From Maliibacterium massiliense (GTDB lineage Bacteria; Bacillota; Clostridia; Christensenellales; Maliibacteriaceae), in NCBI RefSeq assembly GCF_900604345.1, contig NZ_LR026983.1:930001-994000 (forward strand): a DNA stretch of 64,000 bases, written 5' to 3'. Below, in pieces: positions 6,201 through 43,910 of the stretch. The translations under genes and the position numbers were made by a program. Each line of letters opens with the position of its first letter. Position 1 is the first letter of the stretch. The notes under the pieces were generated by a model that saw only the letters and a program-made list of their open reading frames with translations, had not been told where the DNA came from and ran no database searches.

Positions 6201-7946
6201 CTAACCGATCATCTGGAAGTGTTCCGCGATGGGCCCCAGCGACAGCGCCGGGAAGAAGCTCAGCGCGCCGATAAGCAGCACGATGAAGATCAGCAGGAAC
6301 ACGAACAGTCCGTTGCAGGTGGAAAGGGTGCCCGCCGTGGTGGCGAGTCGTTTCTTTTTCACCATGCTGCCCGCGATGGCCATGGTGCCGATGATGGGCA
6401 CAAAGCGCACAAACAGCATCACCAGGCCCAGGCTGACGTTGAAAAACGGCGTGTTTGCGTTAAACCCCGCAAACGCGGAGCCGTTGTTGCCGCCCGCTGA
6501 AGAGAACGCGTAGAGCAGTTCGGAGAACCCATGCGCGCCGGCGTTGTTGAGGCTCTCGGCCGTGGTGGGCAGCAGCGCGGCGATGCCGCTGCCGATCAGG
6601 ATAGCCACGGGCGTGGCCAGGCAGACGATGCAGGCCATCTTCATCTCGTAGGGCTCGATCTTCTTGCCCAGGTACTCGGGCGTTCTGCCCACCATGAGCC
6701 CCGCAATGAACACCGCCATGATGGCAAACGCCAGCATGCCGTAGAGGCCGCAGCCCGTGCCGCCGAAGATCACCTCGCCCAGCTGCATCTGCAGCATGGT
6801 GACAAGCCCGCCGATGGGCGTGTAGCTGTCGTGCATGGAGTTGACCGAACCGTTGGACGCGGCTGTGGTATAGGAAGCCCAGGTGGCGGAGGTCGCGATG
6901 CCAAAGCGCGCCTCCTTACCCTCCATGTTGCCGCCCGCCTGCTCGGCTGTGGCCTGGATGTTGACCGCGCCGTTTTGCGCCAGCTGCGGGGTGCCCGCCT
7001 GTTCATTCACGGCGATGACGCCCAAACCGATCACCAGCATGATAAACATGGCAAGGAATATGGCCTTGCCCTGCCGCTTATCCTTAATGTTCCTGCCAAA
7101 GGTAAAGCACAGCGCCGCGGGGATCAGCAGCAGCGAAATCATCTCAAACAGGTTGGAAAACGGCGTGGGGTTCTCCAGCGGATGCGCCGAGTTGGTGCCG
7201 TTGAATCCGCCGCCGTTGGTACCCAGCTGCTTGATGGCGATCTGGCTTGCGCCCGGGCCCATGGGCACGATCTGCTGCGTGACGGATGTCCCGTCCTCCA
7301 GCACGATGGGCTCCACCAGTTCCACCGTCTCATAGGGTTTGAAGTTCTGCACCACGCCCTGGGAAATCAGCACGGTGGTGACGATGAGCGAGAGGGGCAG
7401 CAGGATGTAGAGCACGATGCGGGTCATATCCACCCAGAAGCTGCCCAGCCCTCCGCCCTTGACCTTGACAAAGCCGCGGATCAGCGCGAACAGCACCGCG
7501 ATGCCCGTGGCGGCGGATACAAAGTTCTGCACCGTCAGGCCCATAAACTGCGCAAAGTAGCCCAGCGCTGCCTCGCCGTTGTATGCCTGCCAGTTGGTGT
7601 TGGTGACGAAGCTGGACGCTGTGTTAAACGACAGATGCCAGCTCATGCCATCGTACCCCTGGGGGTTGAAGGGCAGGAACTTCTGCAGCATCAATATCAG
7701 AAACAGCACCACCAGGCCGATGGCGTTGAACCACAGCACGCAGGCCAGGTAGCGCTTCCAGTGCATCTGCTCATCCTCCTGGATGTGCATCAGCCTGTAG
7801 ACGCCATGCTCGCAGGGGCGGAGCAGCTTACTTAAAAACGTCTTCTCCCCGTTCATGACCTTGCCGATGTATCTGCCAAGCGGGATAGCCAGCAGCACCA
7901 AAATGATAAGATACAATGCGTATTGCAATATTGTCTGTGTCGTCAC
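6201..7946 (-). CDS. kdpA: K+-transporting ATPase subunit A
   Basis: 581 residues, multi-pass. This is the K+-selective channel-like subunit of KdpFABC. The selectivity-filter segment [15 protein letters not shown] and other glycine-rich filter segments are visible. The start is GTG and overlaps the kdpF stop in GTGA (7943-7946), so translation is coupled to kdpF. Confidence 0.97.
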
Positions 7947-8032
7947 TGCCTGTCACCTCTCAGTAGCACTGCGCTCAGGTACACGAGCACAGCTACGGCG
8001 ATTACGCCGATGATGCCAATCATAATGTCCAT
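7943..8032 (-). CDS. kdpF: KdpF small subunit
   Basis: 29-residue hydrophobic peptide beginning MDIMIGIIGV and ending LLRGDRQ. A single membrane helix fills most of it, as expected for the KdpF stabilising subunit. The ATG is preceded by a strong AGGAGGGGG site. Its stop overlaps the kdpA GTG. It is first in the operon. Confidence 0.9.
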   Translation of the reverse strand: MDIMIGIIGVIAVAVLVYLSAVLLRGDRQ

Positions 8033-37107: not shown

Positions 37108-38022
37108 CTACTTCTCTGTGGATACAGTGATGCGCGCGCCATCAGAGGTAAAGACGATGTCCCCCGATATGGCGCTCTCATAGAGCGCCGCGCCCGCAGC
37201 CTGCAGGCGCTTGTACGCCTTTTTGCCCGGGTGGGTGCTGGAGCCAGGCTCAGTGGTCATCACCGCGTAGGCGGGCGACACCGCGGAGAGAAACGCCTCG
37301 CTGGAGGAACCATTGCTGCCATGGTGCCCCACTTTGAGCACGTCCACGGGGCGCAGCACGCCTGCCTCTAGCATCGCGTTCTCACTCCTTTTGCCCGCGT
37401 CTCCAGTAAGCAGGAAGCGCGTCTGACCACACGTCACCTCCAGCACGATGGAGTAATCGTTCAAATCGTCAAACGTCTCCCCAGGCGCGGGGCACAGCAC
37501 GCGCACCGTGGCGCTGCCCAGCGCAAACGTGTCGCCCGGCGCAGGGCTTTCCACCTGCAGGTTGCTGCGCGCAACGGCGTCGAGCACATCCTCAAACGTC
37601 TTGGTTGTGTGCGCCGCTTTGGGCATCCAGATGCGCCGCACACGCAGGTGGTCCAGCACCGCGTCCAGCGAACCGATGTGGTCCTCGTGCGGGTGGGTGC
37701 CCACTGCCAGCGCAAGCTCGGTGACGCCCTGGGCGTCCAGGTATGCGAGAATCTTCTCCGCGTCCGCATTGTGTCCCGCATCCACCAGCATCGCCTCCCC
37801 GCCGCTCTGAAGCAGCAGGCAGTCCCCCTGGCCCACGTCCAGCACGTGCAGCTTAAGCGATGCCTGCGCAGAGGACGCCTGCTGCGATGCGGAGGTAAAG
37901 GGACGGGGGCTGAGCTGCAGCTCGGTACCCTGGGCCTGGGGCGTCAGCACTGCGGCCGCGGCGGCCACAATGCCGATGAGCACCAGCGTGACCAAAATGC
38001 GTTGCAGGCGTTTTTTCTGCAT
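37108..38022 (-). CDS. Secreted ComEC/Rec2-like metallo-beta-lactamase-fold hydrolase
   Basis: 304 residues. One N-terminal membrane/signal segment (9-27), a Ser/Gln-rich linker, then the fold from LKLHVLDVGQGDCLLL. Metal site THPHEDH at His110, His112, Asp114 and His115; later LLTGDAG and VLKVGHHGS. It resembles the hydrolase domain of ComEC without the channel part. Anchored or exported; probably acts on DNA or nucleotides outside the cell, but the substrate is unproven. Confidence 0.92.
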   Translation of the reverse strand: MQKKRLQRILVTLVLIGIVAAAAAVLTPQAQGTELQLSPRPFTSASQQASSAQASLKLHVLDVGQGDCLLLQSGGEAMLVDAGHNADAEKILAYLDAQGVTELALAVGTHPHEDHIGSLDAVLDHLRVRRIWMPKAAHTTKTFEDVLDAVARSNLQVESPAPGDTFALGSATVRVLCPAPGETFDDLNDYSIVLEVTCGQTRFLLTGDAGKRSENAMLEAGVLRPVDVLKVGHHGSNGSSSEAFLSAVSPAYAVMTTEPGSSTHPGKKAYKRLQAAGAALYESAISGDIVFTSDGARITVSTEK

Positions 38023-38089
38023 AGGTTGCTCCTTCTCTTTTTGCGCGAATCACTTTTGGCAATAGGCGTGGGCTACAAAGGGCGCTCTT

Positions 38090-38570
38090 TCAGCTTGCGC
38101 CTCCCCTTTCATCAAACAGACTGGACGTCCACACCATGTCAAAGGGGCGGTGCCTGCCGTTTTCAAAGAGCATGATGTAACTCTTTGCGGGTGGCTCCTC
38201 GGGAATATCGTACTGGGAGAGCATCTGGAAGGACATGGCCGTCTCGGGCGTGGCTGCAGCGCCCCGCTGCGCATAGTACCCCACCAGCAGGGTGTTGCCG
38301 TCCACCCAGCGCATATCCACCTGCCCGTAGGCGGTCGGCCCCTCCCCCCTCGTCGTGCACGCCGTTGAAAAAGACATAGACGCGCTGCTTGCCCTCGCGG
38401 TAGAGGTACACGCCGTTTTTCTCCTGGCATGCCGCCACAAAGCGTTCCAGCTCCTGCTGGCGCCAAAGCGCCTGCTGGTTGTGCGCGCGCCGCGCGCCGC
38501 AGCCTGCCTGCAGCAGCACCAACCCCAAGCACAGCGCCATTGCCAGCGCGCGCCGTCGTTTTGCCATCAT
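38090..38570 (-). pseudogene. Lipoprotein gene with a frameshift
   Basis: The N-terminal part starts MMAKRRRALAMALCLGL behind GGAGG and has a lipobox-like LQAGC; it reads to YVFFNGVHDEG. The C-terminal part continues in the +1-shifted frame from GEGPTAYGQVDMRWVDG to DERGGAS. The frames meet in a run of six C (38344-38349; G on the coding strand). One base fewer restores a single ORF of about 160 residues. Either a real frameshift, phase variation at the homopolymer, or a sequencing error. The original protein is an unknown small lipoprotein. Confidence 0.7.
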
Positions 38571-38606
38571 TGCCCAGCCTCCGATTGCGTTCCTTGTGCC
38601 ATCCAT

Positions 38607-38615
38607 ATTGTAGCA
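38607..38615 (-). promoter_or_regulatory. Extended -10 promoter of the lipoprotein gene
   Basis: TGC-TACAAT on the minus strand, about 37 nt before the start. Confidence 0.55.
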
Positions 38616-38801
38616 TCTGCCGCCAAACGCGCGCAAGCGCGGGCAAGCGCAGTAAAAGCGCGGGGTGTATGGCTCCGCGCTTTGTCACGGCATGGGCACT
38701 TGCACACGCCGCGCATGTTTCGCGTTTTGCCCCGCACCACGCGCAACGCGCACGCACCACGCCTCAGGGCAGGGGAGTGCGTTGCCGCCGTTTGAGGGCA
38801 C

Positions 38802-38826
38802 AAAAAAAGGGGGACCAAAGTCCCAC
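38802..38826 (-). terminator. Terminator of the micropeptide array
   Basis: GGGAC/GTCCC stem with TTTG loop, CC, then seven T on the minus strand; 22 nt after the last peptide stop. Confidence 0.8.
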
Positions 38827-38847
38827 CTTCTGGCGCGCATTTTTTCG

Positions 38848-38925
38848 TTAGCCGATGGACGCGTTGATGCGCAGCATCGCGATCGAAACGCCCAGCACAA
38901 CGACCGTTGCGATAATACCAGTCAT
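38848..38925 (-). CDS. Hydrophobic micropeptide 4 of the array
   Basis: 25 residues: a short polar start (MTG), a membrane helix about IIATVVVLGVSIAML, and the C-terminus RINASIG. Site GAAGG is 9 nt before the ATG. The Asn-Ala at positions 21-22 with three residues after it matches peptides 1 and 2. Last of the four. Unrecognised family; it lacks a cysteine or acidic tail as in AgrD. Confidence 0.75.
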   Translation of the reverse strand: MTGIIATVVVLGVSIAMLRINASIG

Positions 38926-38976
38926 ATCAGTTCGCCTTCTTTCTATGCGGTTTGTAAGGAACGCGCCTGTGCGGGG

Positions 38977-39066
38977 TTATTGCTCCCGCTTACAGCGCAG
39001 ACGATATCTCTCATTGACCAGGCTGCAGACCAGCACCAGCGTGCAGAACGCGATAGCGGTAACCAT
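38977..39066 (-). CDS. Hydrophobic micropeptide 3 of the array (basic-tailed variant)
   Basis: 29 residues: MVTAIAF start like peptide 2, a helix containing two cysteines (CTLVLVCSLV), then a charged tail NERYRLRCKREQ. Site AGGTAGG is 5-6 nt before the ATG. Most divergent of the four, with a long basic C-terminus that would face the cytoplasm. Confidence 0.72.
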   Translation of the reverse strand: MVTAIAFCTLVLVCSLVNERYRLRCKREQ

Positions 39067-39092
39067 AGGCACCTACCTTGTGCGCACTGCGT

Positions 39093-39170
39093 TTAGTGCA
39101 TGATCGCATTCTTGACAAGAAATGCGGTGGATGCGATAGCCACGACTGCAAATGCAATGGAGGTAATCAT
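39093..39170 (-). CDS. Hydrophobic micropeptide 2 of the array
   Basis: 25 residues: MITS, a helix about IAFAVVAIASTAFLV, tail KNAIMH. Site GAAGG is 8 nt before the ATG. Aligns with peptide 1 over the whole length (AF-x-VV ... NA-[IL]-x-H). Confidence 0.77.
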   Translation of the reverse strand: MITSIAFAVVAIASTAFLVKNAIMH

Positions 39171-39188
39171 ATCATCAACCTTCTTTCT

Positions 39189-39272
39189 TCAGTGGGTCAA
39201 AGCATTTCTGCTGAGCATCGTCATCGAACCCAAAACCACCACAAGAAATGCGAGCGTATGAAACATTGCCAT
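39189..39272 (-). CDS. Hydrophobic micropeptide 1 of the array
   Basis: 27 residues: MAMFHT, a helix about LAFLVVVLGSMTML, tail SRNALTH. Strong AAGGAG site 10 nt before the ATG. First gene of the four-peptide transcript. The spacing between successive peptide ORFs is 18-51 nt, each gap holding a ribosome site. Confidence 0.78.
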   Translation of the reverse strand: MAMFHTLAFLVVVLGSMTMLSRNALTH

Positions 39273-39471
39273 ACCAATTCAACTCCTTCTTCTTCTCCCT
39301 AAGCCCAGCTTCGACACTTCCAATACCTGCCGAAAGCTACTTCCATGGGTATGCAGGCGATGTGCGCTGTGACACAGCGCGCGCCTTTCCGCGGGCAGCG
39401 GCGCCAAACTGCCCTTGGAACGCCATCCGGCCCGTTTGGATCGCTCCTTGCAGACCCTACTGCTTACCACG
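39273..39471 (-). other. Long leader of the micropeptide transcript
   Basis: About 190 nt between promoter and first peptide. GC-rich in the middle with a GCGCTGTG/CACAGCGC hairpin (about 39364-39382). A 29-codon hydrophilic ORF is open here but its nearest ribosome site is too far, so I do not call it. The leader may control translation. Confidence 0.4.
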
Positions 39472-39499
39472 CTTATACGATAGCACCGATTTATTGCAA
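39472..39499 (-). promoter_or_regulatory. Promoter of the micropeptide array
   Basis: TTGCAA (39494-39499), 16-nt spacer, TATAAG (39472-39477) on the minus strand. The weak -35 abuts a direct repeat, as expected for activator-dependent LytTR promoters. Confidence 0.6.
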
Positions 39500-39531
39500 A
39501 ATTGTTACAAATGTTTTAAGAAATCGTTACA
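39499..39531. promoter_or_regulatory. Direct repeats just upstream of the array promoter
   Basis: AAATTGTTACA (39499-39509) and AAATCGTTACA (39521-39531), 22 bp apart start to start with one mismatch. Two direct repeats two helical turns apart upstream of a weak -35 is the classic LytTR-regulator operator layout. The adjacent LytTR gene is the obvious candidate binder. Confidence 0.6.
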
Positions 39532-39532
39532 T

Positions 39533-39586
39533 ATGGGACATTTTATGTATTAACGGGACGCTTTATGTCCTTGTAGCAATGGGACA
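39533..39586. promoter_or_regulatory. ATGGGACA repeat cluster
   Basis: Three octamers, ATGGGACA (39533), ACGGGACG (39553) and ATGGGACA (39579), spaced 20 and 26 bp, reaching up to the LytTR stop codon. A possible second operator set. Confidence 0.45.
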
Positions 39587-39589
39587 GGG

Positions 39590-40333
39590 TCAGTGCATCA
39601 TCGCCTCCAGCTGATCATAGCGATCATGGGTCATCAGCGCGTCCTGCGTGGTGCCCTTGAGCTTGACGATGTACGTCCAGCGCCCGTAGGGATAGATATT
39701 GCTGATGTAATCCAGGTTGATGATATACGATTTGTGCGTGCGGAAAAACCGGTCGTGCGGCAGGCGGTTCTCCAATTCGCTCAAGGTATCGCTGGAGGTG
39801 CACCGACCTCCGCCCACGGTGTAGAACACCGTTTGGCGGTCCTCCCGCTGAATGAGCAGGATGTCGTTTAAGTCCAGCACCGTCACCCCCTCGCGCCCTT
39901 TGAGCATGATCTTCTCCAACGTACGGGGGCGGGGCGTCACAGGCGCCTGCAGCACCGCCTCGTGCTGTTTGTTCCATTCCAGGATGCGCGCAAGGGTGCC
40001 GCGCAGCCGCTCCAGTTCAAACGGCTTGACAAGATAGTCCACCGCGTACACCTCAAAGGCCTCTTTGCGGTAGACCTCATGGGCCGTGATAAACACCACG
40101 GACGTCTTCGGCGCAATATCCTGCACCTGGCGCGCCACCTCGATGCCGGTGATATCCGGCATCTCGACATCCAAAAAGAGCACGTCGGGGCGCTTCTCTT
40201 CAAAAAGGCGCAGCGCCTCGGCGCCATTTTGCGCCTCTGCCAGCAGGGTAAAGCCCTCTGTCTTCTCCAGTACGCGACAGACCAGGCGTCGCATGTCCGC
40301 CTGGTCGTCCGCCACAATGCAACCAATGGCCAC
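39590..40333 (-). CDS. LytTR-family response regulator
   Basis: 247 residues from GTG 40333. AAGGAGG is 8 nt from this GTG but only 2-3 nt from the ATG at 40339, which decides the start. Receiver domain with phospho-acceptor Asp in LFLDVEMPD and conserved Lys in VDYLVKPF. The C-terminal LytTR DNA-binding domain runs from EKIMLKGREGVTVLDLNDI through FFRTHKSYIINLDYISNIYPYGR. Likely partner is the kinase at 42887. Likely target is the repeat-flanked promoter directly downstream. Confidence 0.95.
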   Translation of the reverse strand: MAIGCIVADDQADMRRLVCRVLEKTEGFTLLAEAQNGAEALRLFEEKRPDVLFLDVEMPDITGIEVARQVQDIAPKTSVVFITAHEVYRKEAFEVYAVDYLVKPFELERLRGTLARILEWNKQHEAVLQAPVTPRPRTLEKIMLKGREGVTVLDLNDILLIQREDRQTVFYTVGGGRCTSSDTLSELENRLPHDRFFRTHKSYIINLDYISNIYPYGRWTYIVKLKGTTQDALMTHDRYDQLEAMMH

Positions 40334-40369
40334 GTGCATTTCCTCCTTGGCACGTCCTTTTGTGTATGA

Positions 40370-40996
40370 TTAGCGCCGCCGCGCGCGCCGCGCCTTGGGC
40401 GGCCCTAAAATCTCCGAGAGCACAATGCCCTGCAGCACGCTTTGGCTGTCCCACGCAAGTTCAAATCCAGGGGTCTGCCCCTGCGGCGCGTCGCCGACCG
40501 TTTCACAGGAGACCACGCGCGTGCCGTAGCGCACGGCGTCGCCCTCGCCCGCGTACGCGCCCGCCTGAGGCTGCACCTTTTCAATGTGCAGATGGCCCGG
40601 CGCGCTGCCGTAGGGGTTCTCGCTGCGCGCGCGCGCGTTTGCCTCCTCCCGGCGCCGCACCGCGCGCGGATCCTCTCCCTGCGCGAGGGCCTGGGCGGCC
40701 CTGTGGGCGTCCAGCGCACGCGCGGCAGCCTCCGCCGGCAGCGGTACAGACATCTGGGACGTGGTGCGCGGCTGCAGAACCGGCGCCCGCCGCGGCGCCA
40801 TGGTGGACTGCGCGGGTTGCATCGGCGCGCTCTGCGGCGGGCTGTCCGCCTGGGGCGCGCGCATCATGTCCGCAGCCTGCTGCGCGCTCCTGCGCTGCGC
40901 CTGCTGCGCGCGCTTCTGCGCCTCCGCCTTGGTTTTCTGGCCCTTGATGACACTGTAGATCACAAAGCCCATGATCAGCAGCGCAAAGATATCCAT
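40370..40996 (-). CDS. Single-pass low-complexity membrane protein, unrecognised
   Basis: 208 residues. Membrane helix at 2-18 (IFALLIMGFVIYSVI), a Gln/Ala/Arg-rich helical and disordered middle (20-130), and a compact C-terminus ending GIVLSEILGPPKARRARRR. The SEILGPPKA-type ending is conserved in hypothetical clostridial proteins as far as I recall. Cytoplasmic tail. It lies between floA and the LytTR gene, 36 nt from the latter, so it is probably part of the same system. Confidence 0.75.
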   Translation of the reverse strand: MDIFALLIMGFVIYSVIKGQKTKAEAQKRAQQAQRRSAQQAADMMRAPQADSPPQSAPMQPAQSTMAPRRAPVLQPRTTSQMSVPLPAEAAARALDAHRAAQALAQGEDPRAVRRREEANARARSENPYGSAPGHLHIEKVQPQAGAYAGEGDAVRYGTRVVSCETVGDAPQGQTPGFELAWDSQSVLQGIVLSEILGPPKARRARRR

Positions 40997-41068
40997 GCGC
41001 CATCACCTTCCCTTTTGAAGTGTTCTTTTAAAAGCATCTCTTTACGAAAGCATGCCTTTTGGAAGCAA

Positions 41069-41142: not shown

Positions 41143-42144
41143 TTATTCTTTGCCGGGTTCCTTACTGGAGGGCGCGCCGCCCATGCGGCCGATGGAATCG
41201 CGCATGCCGGTATCCGCCACCACATTCTGCATGTTGTAGTAGTCCATCACGCCCAACTTACCCTCACGCAGCGCGGAGGCCATGGCCCGGGGCACGTCCG
41301 CCTCGGCTTCCACCACTTTGGCGCGCATCTCCTGCACCTGCGCCTTCATCTCCTGCTCGTGCGCGACAGCCATAGCGCGGCGTTCCTCCGCCTTGGCCTG
41401 CGCAATGCGGCGGTCAGCCTCAGCCTGGTCCATCTGCAGCTGCGCGCCGATGTTGCGGCCCACGTCCACGTCCGCGATATCGATGGAGAGAATCTCAAAT
41501 GCCGTGCCCGCGTCCAGGCCCTTGCTCAGCACAGTGCGGCTGATGAGGTCGGGATTCTCCAGCACCTGCTTGTGGGTCTCCGACGAACCCACGGTGGTGA
41601 CGATGCCCTCGCCCACGCGGGCGATGACCGTCTCCTCGCCGGCGCCACCGACCAGACGGTCGATGTTGGCGCGCACGGTCACACGGGCCTTGGCGCGCAG
41701 CTCGATGCCGTCCTTGGCAATAGCCGCCACGGTGGGGGTCTCAATGACCTTGGGGTTAACGCTCATCTGCACCGCCTGCAGCACGTCTCGGCCGGCCAAA
41801 TCGATGGCGGCGGCGCGCTCAAACTCCAGGGGAATATCCGCGCGCTGCGCGGCGATGAGCGCGTTCATGACGCGGTCGACGTTGCCGCCGGCCAGGTAAT
41901 GCGCTTCCAGTTTATCAATGGCCACGGTGATGCCCGCTTTATAGCCCTTGATCATGGGGTTGATGATGCGGGCGGGCACCACGCGGCGGATGCGCATGCC
42001 CACCAGGGTGAAGATGCGCACGCGCACGCCGGCGGCCATGGCGGAAATCCAGAGGCCCACAGGGACGAACGTGAAAAAGATGCACAGCACCACGATCACG
42101 GCCACGGCAATGCCTACGGCAACAAAGATACTAATGGGATCCAT
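41143..42144 (-). CDS. floA: Flotillin-like protein FloA
   Basis: 333 residues, the usual length. An N-terminal membrane segment (about 5-30) is followed by the SPFH-like domain ([41 protein letters not shown]) and a C-terminal Glu/Ala-rich helical region ([20 protein letters not shown]). Scaffolds membrane microdomains. Directly follows nfeD, as in the Bacillus yqeZ-yqfAB operon linked to membrane-stress protection. Confidence 0.96.
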
Positions 42145-42237: not shown

Positions 42238-42735
42238 TTAGGGCTTGATGGGGCGCACCACAATGCGGCTGCCCTCCACCCGTATGACGCGCACGGGGGT
42301 GTTCGCCTCTACAAAGGCGCTTTCCGCCAGCACATCCAGGCGCACGCCGTCAAAATCCGCGGTGCCCGCCGGACGCAGCGGGGTGAGCACCACGCCCTCC
42401 TTATCCAGGAAAAAGTGCAGGTCGCCCGTGGGGTCCACGCTGGACTCGTTGATGGCCGCGCTGAGCACGATGGACGACTTGGACAACTTGCCCTTCTGCG
42501 CCGAATGCAGGATCAGCATCAGCGCGATGCCCAAAATGGCCGCCACCACCAGCAGGATGATAAGCCCCTCTTCCACCGTTTTGGCCTGCACAAAGATGCC
42601 CGCCACGATCAGGATGGAGCCCGAGATGCCCGGCACGCCGAAGCCCGGGATGAACATTTCAATGATGATCAGCGCGATGCCCACAATCAGCATCAGCGCC
42701 GCCGCCCATGAGAAGGCCATAAAATACGCCCACAT
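42238..42735 (-). CDS. NfeD family membrane protein
   Basis: 165 residues from MWAYFMAFSW (GGGGG 8 nt upstream). Membrane helices up to about residue 75 (IALIIIEMFIPGFGVPGISG, LIILLVVAAILGIALML) and a C-terminal OB-fold NfeD domain from about 110 (GKEGVV-like DKEGVVLTPLRPAGTADFDGVRLDV). Short NfeD partner of flotillins, without the protease domain. Confidence 0.93.
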   Translation of the reverse strand: MWAYFMAFSWAAALMLIVGIALIIIEMFIPGFGVPGISGSILIVAGIFVQAKTVEEGLIILLVVAAILGIALMLILHSAQKGKLSKSSIVLSAAINESSVDPTGDLHFFLDKEGVVLTPLRPAGTADFDGVRLDVLAESAFVEANTPVRVIRVEGSRIVVRPIKP

Positions 42736-42886
42736 GGTCAAATCCCCCTTTATCGATATGCGCGCTTTGCAGCGGAAGCCCAGGGATAGGCGTTCCATGA
42801 CCACCGCGCGCCTGGATTAAATGTATTGTACAGCGCGCACCTGCGCGCGCGCCATGGCTGTGCGCCAAAGTATGCACTTTGTCGCC

Positions 42887-43849
42887 TCAACTGACGCTTC
42901 CGTTGTCATTGCTATCGCCGCTGTGATGGACGTTTTCGTCGCCCATCGCGTTATCCGCATCGCCTGGCGCCGCGCCCGCTTTGGGCAGCGCGCCGGAAAA
43001 ACACGTCCAGTCGCCGCGGCGCTCGTAGCGCACCGTGCCGCCGGCGCGCGTCACTTCCTCGTGCACGATGGCCAGGCCCATGCCGCGCCCCTCGCCCCGG
43101 GTGCTGAAGCCAGCGTGGAACATGTGCGCCGCCACCTGTGCGGGCACGGCCGCGCCGTTGTTCTCCACGCAAAAGCGAATGTGCGTTTCGTCCTCGCGCA
43201 GCACCACGCGCATCATGCGCGCTGCGCCCGCGGGCAGCTCCAGCGTGGCGTCCACGGCGTTATCGATCAGGTTGGAGAGCACCCGGCACATCTGCCAGTC
43301 CTCCATGGGCAACGCGTCCATGGGCGATTCGATCACCAAATCAAGCGCAATCCCCTTGTCCTGGCAGGTGATGCTCTTGGCCTGCAGCAGCGCGTTGATG
43401 GCCGGGCTTGCGGTACGCAGCACCCGGCTGACATCGCGGATGTCCTTGTAGACGCGCTTGATATAATCGGACGCCGAAGCGTATTCCCCCATCTCCATCA
43501 GCCCGTAGACCACCTGCAGGTGGTTGAGAAAGTCGTGCCGCTGGGCGCGCAGGGTCCCGTTGAGCTTTTCCGTCATCTCAAAGGAGGTGGCGATAGTCTC
43601 GATGTTGGTCTCCAGCTTGCGGGTGTGCTTGGAGATGCGCAGCGCCATCACCACGTCCACGCCCACCAGCAGCGTCAGCACGGTCACGGCGATATCCCCG
43701 CCGCCCTCAAAAAGCGTCCCGCCGCTGCGGAACGCCCGGTACAGCACGAGCAGCAGCACGGCAAGCTCGAGCACCGAAAGCGCCACCACGGCCCGCGATG
43801 TTTTGTCGGTGTTGACATTGCGTTTGCTCGGAACCACTCTCTGCTTCAT
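42887..43849 (-). CDS. Intramembrane-type sensor histidine kinase (AgrC/CitA-like core)
   Basis: 320 residues from ATG 43849 (GGAG 6 nt upstream; ATG 43852 or GTG 43861 are also possible). Two membrane helices near the N-terminus (about 20-40 and 52-70) joined by only about 14 residues, so no outer sensor domain. A coiled helix leads to the phospho-acceptor RHDFLNHLQVVYGL. The ATPase domain has NLIDNAVDAT and GRGMGLAIV. The acidic tail is rich in Asn/Ser/Asp. The layout resembles kinases that sense changes within the membrane. Followed by nfeD-floA. Confidence 0.93.
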   Translation of the reverse strand: MKQRVVPSKRNVNTDKTSRAVVALSVLELAVLLLVLYRAFRSGGTLFEGGGDIAVTVLTLLVGVDVVMALRISKHTRKLETNIETIATSFEMTEKLNGTLRAQRHDFLNHLQVVYGLMEMGEYASASDYIKRVYKDIRDVSRVLRTASPAINALLQAKSITCQDKGIALDLVIESPMDALPMEDWQMCRVLSNLIDNAVDATLELPAGAARMMRVVLREDETHIRFCVENNGAAVPAQVAAHMFHAGFSTRGEGRGMGLAIVHEEVTRAGGTVRYERRGDWTCFSGALPKAGAAPGDADNAMGDENVHHSGDSNDNGSVS

Positions 43850-43910
43850 CATTTTCTCCACCCAGGTTCGGCGTCATTCATCGCCGGCGCTTCAAAGTTC
43901 TTCTATGGAC

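Follow-up and report, generated by a model that had tools for sequence, protein, structure and literature searches.

Four very short open reading frames (ORFs) lie in a row on the minus strand of the window, that is, the whole stretch of 64,000 nucleotides analysed here, behind a same-strand operon that encodes a sensor kinase, a flotillin and a LytTR response regulator. Their products, P1 to P4, may be LytTR-induced peptides that enter the membrane and there modulate the kinase or the flotillin. We assign this reading, drawn from gene context and analogy, a probability of about 40%. It is favoured by the occurrence of four micro-ORFs beyond what shuffled sequence yields, by the paralogy of P1, P2 and P4, and by the adjacent same-strand regulator. 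Ordinary gene finders skip genes as short as these, and to our knowledge a micropeptide array beside a signalling system has rarely been described. The literature searched yielded no description of small membrane ORFs in tandem together with kinases or LytTR proteins.

The array spans 39272-38848 and consists of ORFs of 27, 25, 29 and 25 codons, all on the minus strand. P1 (39189..39272) is a hydrophobic peptide of 27 residues, MAMFHTLAFLVVVLGSMTMLSRNALTH; P2 (39093..39170) and P4 (38848..38925) are hydrophobic peptides of 25 residues, MITSIAFAVVAIASTAFLVKNAIMH and MTGIIATVVVLGVSIAMLRINASIG. P3 (38977..39066) is a 29-residue peptide with a basic tail, MVTAIAFCTLVLVCSLVNERYRLRCKREQ. All four were obtained both by reading the ORFs and by a micro-ORF scan. 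Each frame has a Shine-Dalgarno-like site (AAGGAG for P1, AAGG for P2, AGGTG for P3, AAGG for P4), and the starts are spaced by 102, 104 and 141 nt. Translation of P3 could begin at a GTG at 39072, giving 31 residues, or at an ATG at 39066, giving 29; we placed the start at the ATG because it is preceded by AGGTAGGTG and yields MVTAIAF. A terminator-like hairpin with a T run (38811..38824, minus strand) follows directly 3' of the array. Since the terminator scan of 38600-39620 calls one site in the real sequence and a mean of 1.3 in shuffles, the argument lies in the position of the hairpin and not in its presence. This layout confirms the preliminary description, which had reported four minus-strand ORFs with their own ribosome sites and one helix each, followed by a terminator. 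Directly downstream of the array, at 38090-38636 on the minus strand, a small lipoprotein-like gene appears by eye to be split over two frames, by either a true frameshift or a sequencing error.

Each peptide consists mostly of one hydrophobic stretch. The hydrophobic cores comprise 17-19 residues with hydrophobic moments of 0.07-0.18, and the largest value over 18 residues is 0.25. Net charge amounts to only +1 to +3, and a basic residue lies C-terminal to the helix in every peptide. The core of P1 contains a histidine, and its insertion score is marginal (+0.8 on an energy scale). P1, P2 and P4 end in NALTH, NAIMH and NASIG, an ending that P3 lacks, while P2 and P3 begin with MITSIAF and MVTAIAF; the Asn-Ala ends and the M-[IV]-T-[SA]-I-A-F starts noted earlier are thus both present. 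The Asn and Ala codons at the ends of P1, P2 and P4 differ by synonymous changes.

The density of such ORFs exceeds chance expectation. The micro-ORF scan accepted frames of 18-36 codons if their Shine-Dalgarno-like match covered at least 4 nt and some 15-residue stretch averaged 2.0 or higher on the Kyte-Doolittle scale. Applied to both strands of the 64-kb window, it returned eight matches, four of which form the array. Another lies directly before KdpA (783 bits in Pfam) and ahead of KdpC; this KdpF-like 29-residue peptide (7943-8032, minus strand) scores 15.5 bits against the NCBIfam KdpF model (cut-off 26.85) and served as an internal positive control of the scan. Twenty stretches of 20 kb from the same genome (400 kb, both strands) contain 27 matches and one chance pair within 200 nt. 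Dinucleotide shuffling of the 810-nt region on the array strand gave one match in 57 of 2,000 shuffles and two in none, as against four in the real sequence. Codon usage scores best in the true frame for three of the four ORFs (P2 6.8, P3 3.5 and P4 10.4 bits), while P1 reaches 1.0 bits in its true frame versus 1.3 in a shifted one. Scored by synonymous choice alone, P1 to P4 receive -4.3, -1.6, 1.2 and 5.1 bits, so part of the codon-usage signal reflects amino-acid make-up.

DNA comparison supports duplication among P1, P2 and P4. The protein alignment of P1 with P2 scores 44, a value reached by none of 2,000 segment shuffles and compared with a maximum of 23 in 210 pairs drawn from 21 other hydrophobic micro-ORF products (20 of the genome's 27 scan matches plus the KdpF-like peptide). 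None of the five remaining protein pairs among P1-P4 stands out singly. DNA identity was assessed in codon register, with P1 taken from its second Met, against controls in which codons were permuted within core and tail. The observed identity was reached in 1 of 5,000 controls for P1-P2 (0-1 over all codon-permuted controls), in 0 for P1-P4 and in 10 for P2-P4 (7-10), and this near absence of matching controls identifies the three as duplicates. The corresponding counts for P3 were 42 against P1 and 54 against P2 (37-61 over all such controls) and 1,607 against P4 (1,607-1,951), and its local DNA similarity to P2 was reached by 3 of 500 shuffles. P3 is therefore a doubtful paralogue of the other three, perhaps an older duplicate.

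Selection can be addressed on the same alignments. Over 24 bases at each of the first, second and third codon positions, identical bases number 14, 16 and 8 for P1-P2, 14, 14 and 12 for P1-P4, and 15, 11 and 9 for P2-P4; P1-P2, which is one of several pairs, gives a Fisher p of 0.025. Based on 18-20 synonymous sites, dN/dS is 0.33 for P1-P2, 1.0 for P1-P4 and 0.71 for P2-P4; comparisons with P3 give approximately 0.6 (P1), an undefined value (P2) and approximately 2.1 (P4). These values suggest protein-level selection on the P1-P2 pair. The earlier proposal of duplication and selection across all four peptides hence holds in part: duplication stands for P1, P2 and P4 in the codon-permuted controls and is weak for P3, while selection is hinted at for P1-P2, on few synonymous sites.

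Relatives of the peptides were sought with a four-row profile of P1-P4 (A1), which has 25 positions and would miss diverged relatives. In its own genome, A1 recovers the array at E 5e-12 to 5e-10 by construction. Among 391 genomes of the class, own genome included, only the array itself was found at E <=0.005. Among 396 genomes of the order, again including its own, 16 others gave one match each at E 0.0067 to 0.049. No array appeared in the 300 nt read around 10 of these 16 weak matches; by eye, several run antisense to a conserved gene or within longer frames, and we do not regard them as homologues. A micro-ORF scan of 3 kb at each of nine loci from the peptide profile search revealed no array either. 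The order and class samples overlap, and the relatives drawn include no other species of the genus of Maliibacterium. Searches of P1-P4 against Pfam, NCBIfam and PHROGs gave nothing above cut-off. A1 against PDB gave a single match (E 1.3, taken as chance), and P2 had no match in plasmids. A distant blastn search of 38600-40400 against plasmids returned one 209-base match at 66.5%, also taken as chance. The view that the peptides belong to no described family thus holds for Pfam, NCBIfam, PHROGs and PDB, while the conservation in related genomes proposed earlier as a check was not found in the order and class samples. As far as searched, with one genome and a 25-position profile, the array appears to be a lineage orphan; the missing homologues make it lineage-specific, not unreal.

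The operon upstream, on the same strand, is better represented. It comprises genes for a sensor histidine kinase (42887..43861) with SPOB_a and HATPase_c domains, two predicted membrane helices and a very short outside loop; an NfeD-like membrane protein identified by family scan (42238..42804); FloA (41143..42144), the genome's only PF12127 match; a family-less protein of 208 residues, p208 (40370..40996), with an N-terminal hydrophobic helix, a low-complexity middle and a C-terminal GIVLSEIL motif seen by eye; and a LytTR response regulator (39590..40339), assigned by family scan and locus comparison to a FloA-linked subfamily. The preliminary description had left unmentioned that the LytTR gene is part of a conserved flotillin operon.

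FloA adjoins the regulator in all eight order loci (E <=2.2e-70) and in four of four named-record loci (49-53% identity), three of them from Clostridium genomes and one from the MAG of an uncultured Clostridia bacterium. In a fifth, more distant named locus (34% identity), FloA is not beside the regulator; the named loci are the best five (L034-L038) of 80 kept, and the remaining loci have at most 35% identity. NfeD is present in 11 of the 12 loci and the kinase in 7, once on the opposite strand, where absent genes may sit past the contig end or under the tblastn limit. A p208 counterpart occupies the same place in all 12, recognized by eye in 11 as an open frame whose C-terminal motif loosely resembles GIVLSEIL and in the twelfth by tblastn. 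Two hydrophobic helices joined by a short loop are seen in each of the eight kinases read, subject to uncertain start codons; in one of them, an upstream extension adds a weak stretch.

In the class sample of 391 genomes, with at most six regulator candidates scored per genome, FloA lies within 1.5 kb of the regulator in 19 of 20 loci with E <=4.2e-55 and in none of nine weaker ones (E 7.6e-44 to 7.0e-42). The LytTR subfamily therefore splits into 31 FloA-linked among 32 close loci (L154-L161, L034-L037, L183-L202) and 0 among 10 distant ones, with the qualification that named and other loci may include the same species. The exception is locus L213 (7234-9448, genome G586), where kinase, NfeD and regulator are direct neighbours and 19 kb of sequence contain no match to FloA. 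Gene order differs in L198, where FloA comes after the regulator, and genome G001 has a partial second regulator match (46% over 167 residues). By these comparisons, a kinase-NfeD-FloA-p208-LytTR cassette recurs in many Clostridia. No description of it was found in the literature searched, in which subscription journals were thinly covered.

The array does not travel with this cassette. None was found behind the regulator in seven of the eight order loci (the eighth offers 45 nt only), in the five named loci or in 29 class loci, one of which offers only 336 nt there; single micro-ORF matches occur in 4 of the 29. These loci include all 31 close relatives with readable sequence behind the regulator. 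Hence, the array is no general part of the kinase-FloA-LytTR system.

A gap of 317 nt separates the regulator's stop from P1 and contains candidate control elements, all on the minus strand. Its A+T-rich block (39465-39589) has 36.8% G+C, as compared with 62% in the window. Within this block, a candidate promoter, TTGCAA-16 nt-TATAAG (39472..39499), was recognized by eye and is not called by the promoter scan, whose sole call lies within P1 (39200-39171). Just upstream of the candidate lies a direct repeat, TGTAACGATTT / TGTAACAATTT (39499..39531), of 11 nt with a period of 22 nt, which is a candidate LytTR site. A second direct repeat, ACATAAAGCGTCCC / ACATAAAATGTCCC (39535..39568), has a period of 20 nt and GTCCC ends and sits just behind the regulator's stop codon. 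The available part of PMC6193735 describes LytTR sites as 9-nt direct repeats spaced by 11-13 nt and mostly located about 10 nt before the -35 element. The spacing of the period-22 repeat fits this pattern, whereas its letters fit poorly and its distance to the candidate -35 is about 1 nt. Such a repeat arises in 33 of 5,000 shuffles of the A+T-rich block, and with any letters the kind is not rare, numbering 89 in 400 kb. Its letters have one further near match in the genome, with 3 mismatches, and are absent before the kinase gene and in relatives. LytTR autoregulation was considered as support and rejected: 3 of 20 other regions, taken before kinase genes or behind regulators, carry a repeat with a period of 19-24, and the letters differ in every case.

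The scan calls no terminator between the regulator and P1, which makes read-through from the operon possible as well. A riboswitch-like leader is not supported, since Rfam gives no match at E <=1 over 38000-41000 and shuffled sequences fold as well as the candidate leader does (z 0.30).

How the peptides might act is suggested by the architecture of the kinase. The review PMC8534201 terms kinases without an outside sensor domain intramembrane-sensing and places their control mostly at the membrane helices, with accessory proteins involved for some of them. MgrB, a membrane peptide, is induced by the regulator and represses the kinase PhoQ (PMC2789325). Given an intramembrane-sensing-type kinase, this precedent and single-helix peptides behind the regulator, feedback inside the membrane appears the most likely function of the array. 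The upstream kinase would pair with the operon's LytTR regulator, which would switch on the array either from the period-22 repeat or through read-through transcription. P1-P4 would then be translated, are predicted to cross the membrane once each, and would insert N-outside and C-inside, as the basic residues behind each helix suggest. They would bind the two bare membrane helices of the kinase, or FloA/NfeD, as feedback.

The proposed logic matches that of MgrB in the PhoQ/PhoP system, a very small membrane peptide that is regulator-induced and acts on a kinase. MgrB differs in having 47 residues and broad conservation, as given in the same part of PMC2789325, whereas here four genes of about half that size occur in one genome; no sequence relation between MgrB and P1-P4 is shown, nor do the latter match any Pfam, NCBIfam or PHROGs model above cut-off. 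MgrB function also requires regions outside the membrane (PMC8534201), and P1-P4 are nearly without such regions, which argues against MgrB-type action. The main weakness of membrane feedback as an explanation is that the same kinase system works in relatives that have no array. With low confidence, the scheme can be made more specific: the array would comprise duplicated, diverging internal ligands of a flotillin-linked two-component system, commanded by the regulator, packing on the bare helices of the kinase and setting its output, with the individual copies adjusted to different membrane states.

Related regulatory layouts offer partial parallels. Flotillin/NfeD-type and PSP envelope-stress operons (PMC11237479) share with this locus a Band-7/flotillin protein, a YuaF-type partner and two-component systems; the available sections of that source treat flotillin operons and two-component systems apart and do not mention a FloA-linked LytTR regulator with peptides. 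In the LytTR Regulatory System, as outlined in the accessible part of PMC6193735, a LytTR regulator stands under a membrane inhibitor protein. The LytTR protein here carries a receiver domain and has a kinase gene in its operon, a two-component layout.

Proximity to the genome's only FloA gene, together with the KdpF-like peptide, which shows that single-helix subunits occur in this window, would also suit structural subunits or lipid-ordering partners, for example of a FloA/NfeD microdomain, acting without signalling feedback. KdpF and other single-helix subunits resemble P1-P4 in size and in their one hydrophobic helix, but beside the array only the FloA/NfeD membrane complex is seen, and the peptides number four. 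We consider this role rather unlikely, as the array is missing from the FloA operons of relatives and paralogous copies diverged this far would be unusual for one subunit. A different role, secretion as membrane-active peptides under LytTR control, is suggested by the tandem arrangement, the similar lengths, the separate ribosome sites and the regulator alongside; such peptides would resemble PSM-alpha or multi-peptide leaderless bacteriocins. The PSM-alpha locus is a four-gene tandem that encodes peptides of 20-25 residues. In Staphylococcus aureus, these tandem peptides are under the LytTR regulator AgrA, which directly activates psm genes (PMC4227749, available in part). Phenol-soluble modulins are, however, strongly amphipathic and have a dedicated ABC exporter, whereas P1-P4 are uniformly hydrophobic, with their low moments and small net charge, and the family scan of seven neighbouring proteins finds no exporter gene. 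The lack of a profile match also counts against this role, which we judge unlikely.

Type I toxin-like peptides that an antisense RNA represses would look similar in size, single helix and cationic C-terminus. The loci of Ldr/Ibs/TisB type I toxins are duplicated. These toxins have short hydrophobic helices with cationic ends, and for LdrA a membrane-spanning orientation with the positive C-terminus on the cytosolic side is predicted (PMC8309996). The array differs in being apparently one polycistron with no profile match, and the scan of 38600-39620 finds no plus-strand, and thus no antisense, promoter, although consensus scans miss promoters; the Rfam null result and the leader fold also argue against a toxin locus, which appears improbable. 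We give equally little credence to precursors of C-terminal signal peptides, in which the Asn-Ala-x-x-x ends would be the mature signals. The synonymous codon changes behind NALTH, NAIMH and NASIG favour such a function, as does a match of P4 to a signalling-peptide family, but that match scores 14.9 bits (cut-off 44), spans 13 residues and is most likely chance. The basic residue before the ends argues for a cytoplasmic C-terminus, and P3 lacks the ending. AgrD precursors, moreover, depend on the processing enzyme AgrB, and the genome has no match to PF04647 at E <=0.001; this supports the earlier statement that the peptides are not AgrD-like, with a weak control in that 14 control genomes yield only one sub-threshold match.

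If P1-P4 act on the kinase through feedback inside the membrane, they would represent a compact case of input to a sensor kinase that lacks an outside domain, and would illustrate how tandem duplication can give rise to regulators among the smallest genes. Independent of the array, the FloA-linked kinase/LytTR pair in many Clostridia makes the signal behind flotillin expression testable.

A separate small ORF was observed during locus comparison. Three Clostridium genomes share a conserved hydrophobic ORF of 29 residues (31 from an upstream ATG) with a Shine-Dalgarno-like site, at 13828-13917 in L034, 13820-13909 in L036 and 13765-13854 in L037, on the minus strand in each. By eye, it is flanked by a 74-residue ORF on one side and an isoleucyl-tRNA-synthetase-like gene on the other.
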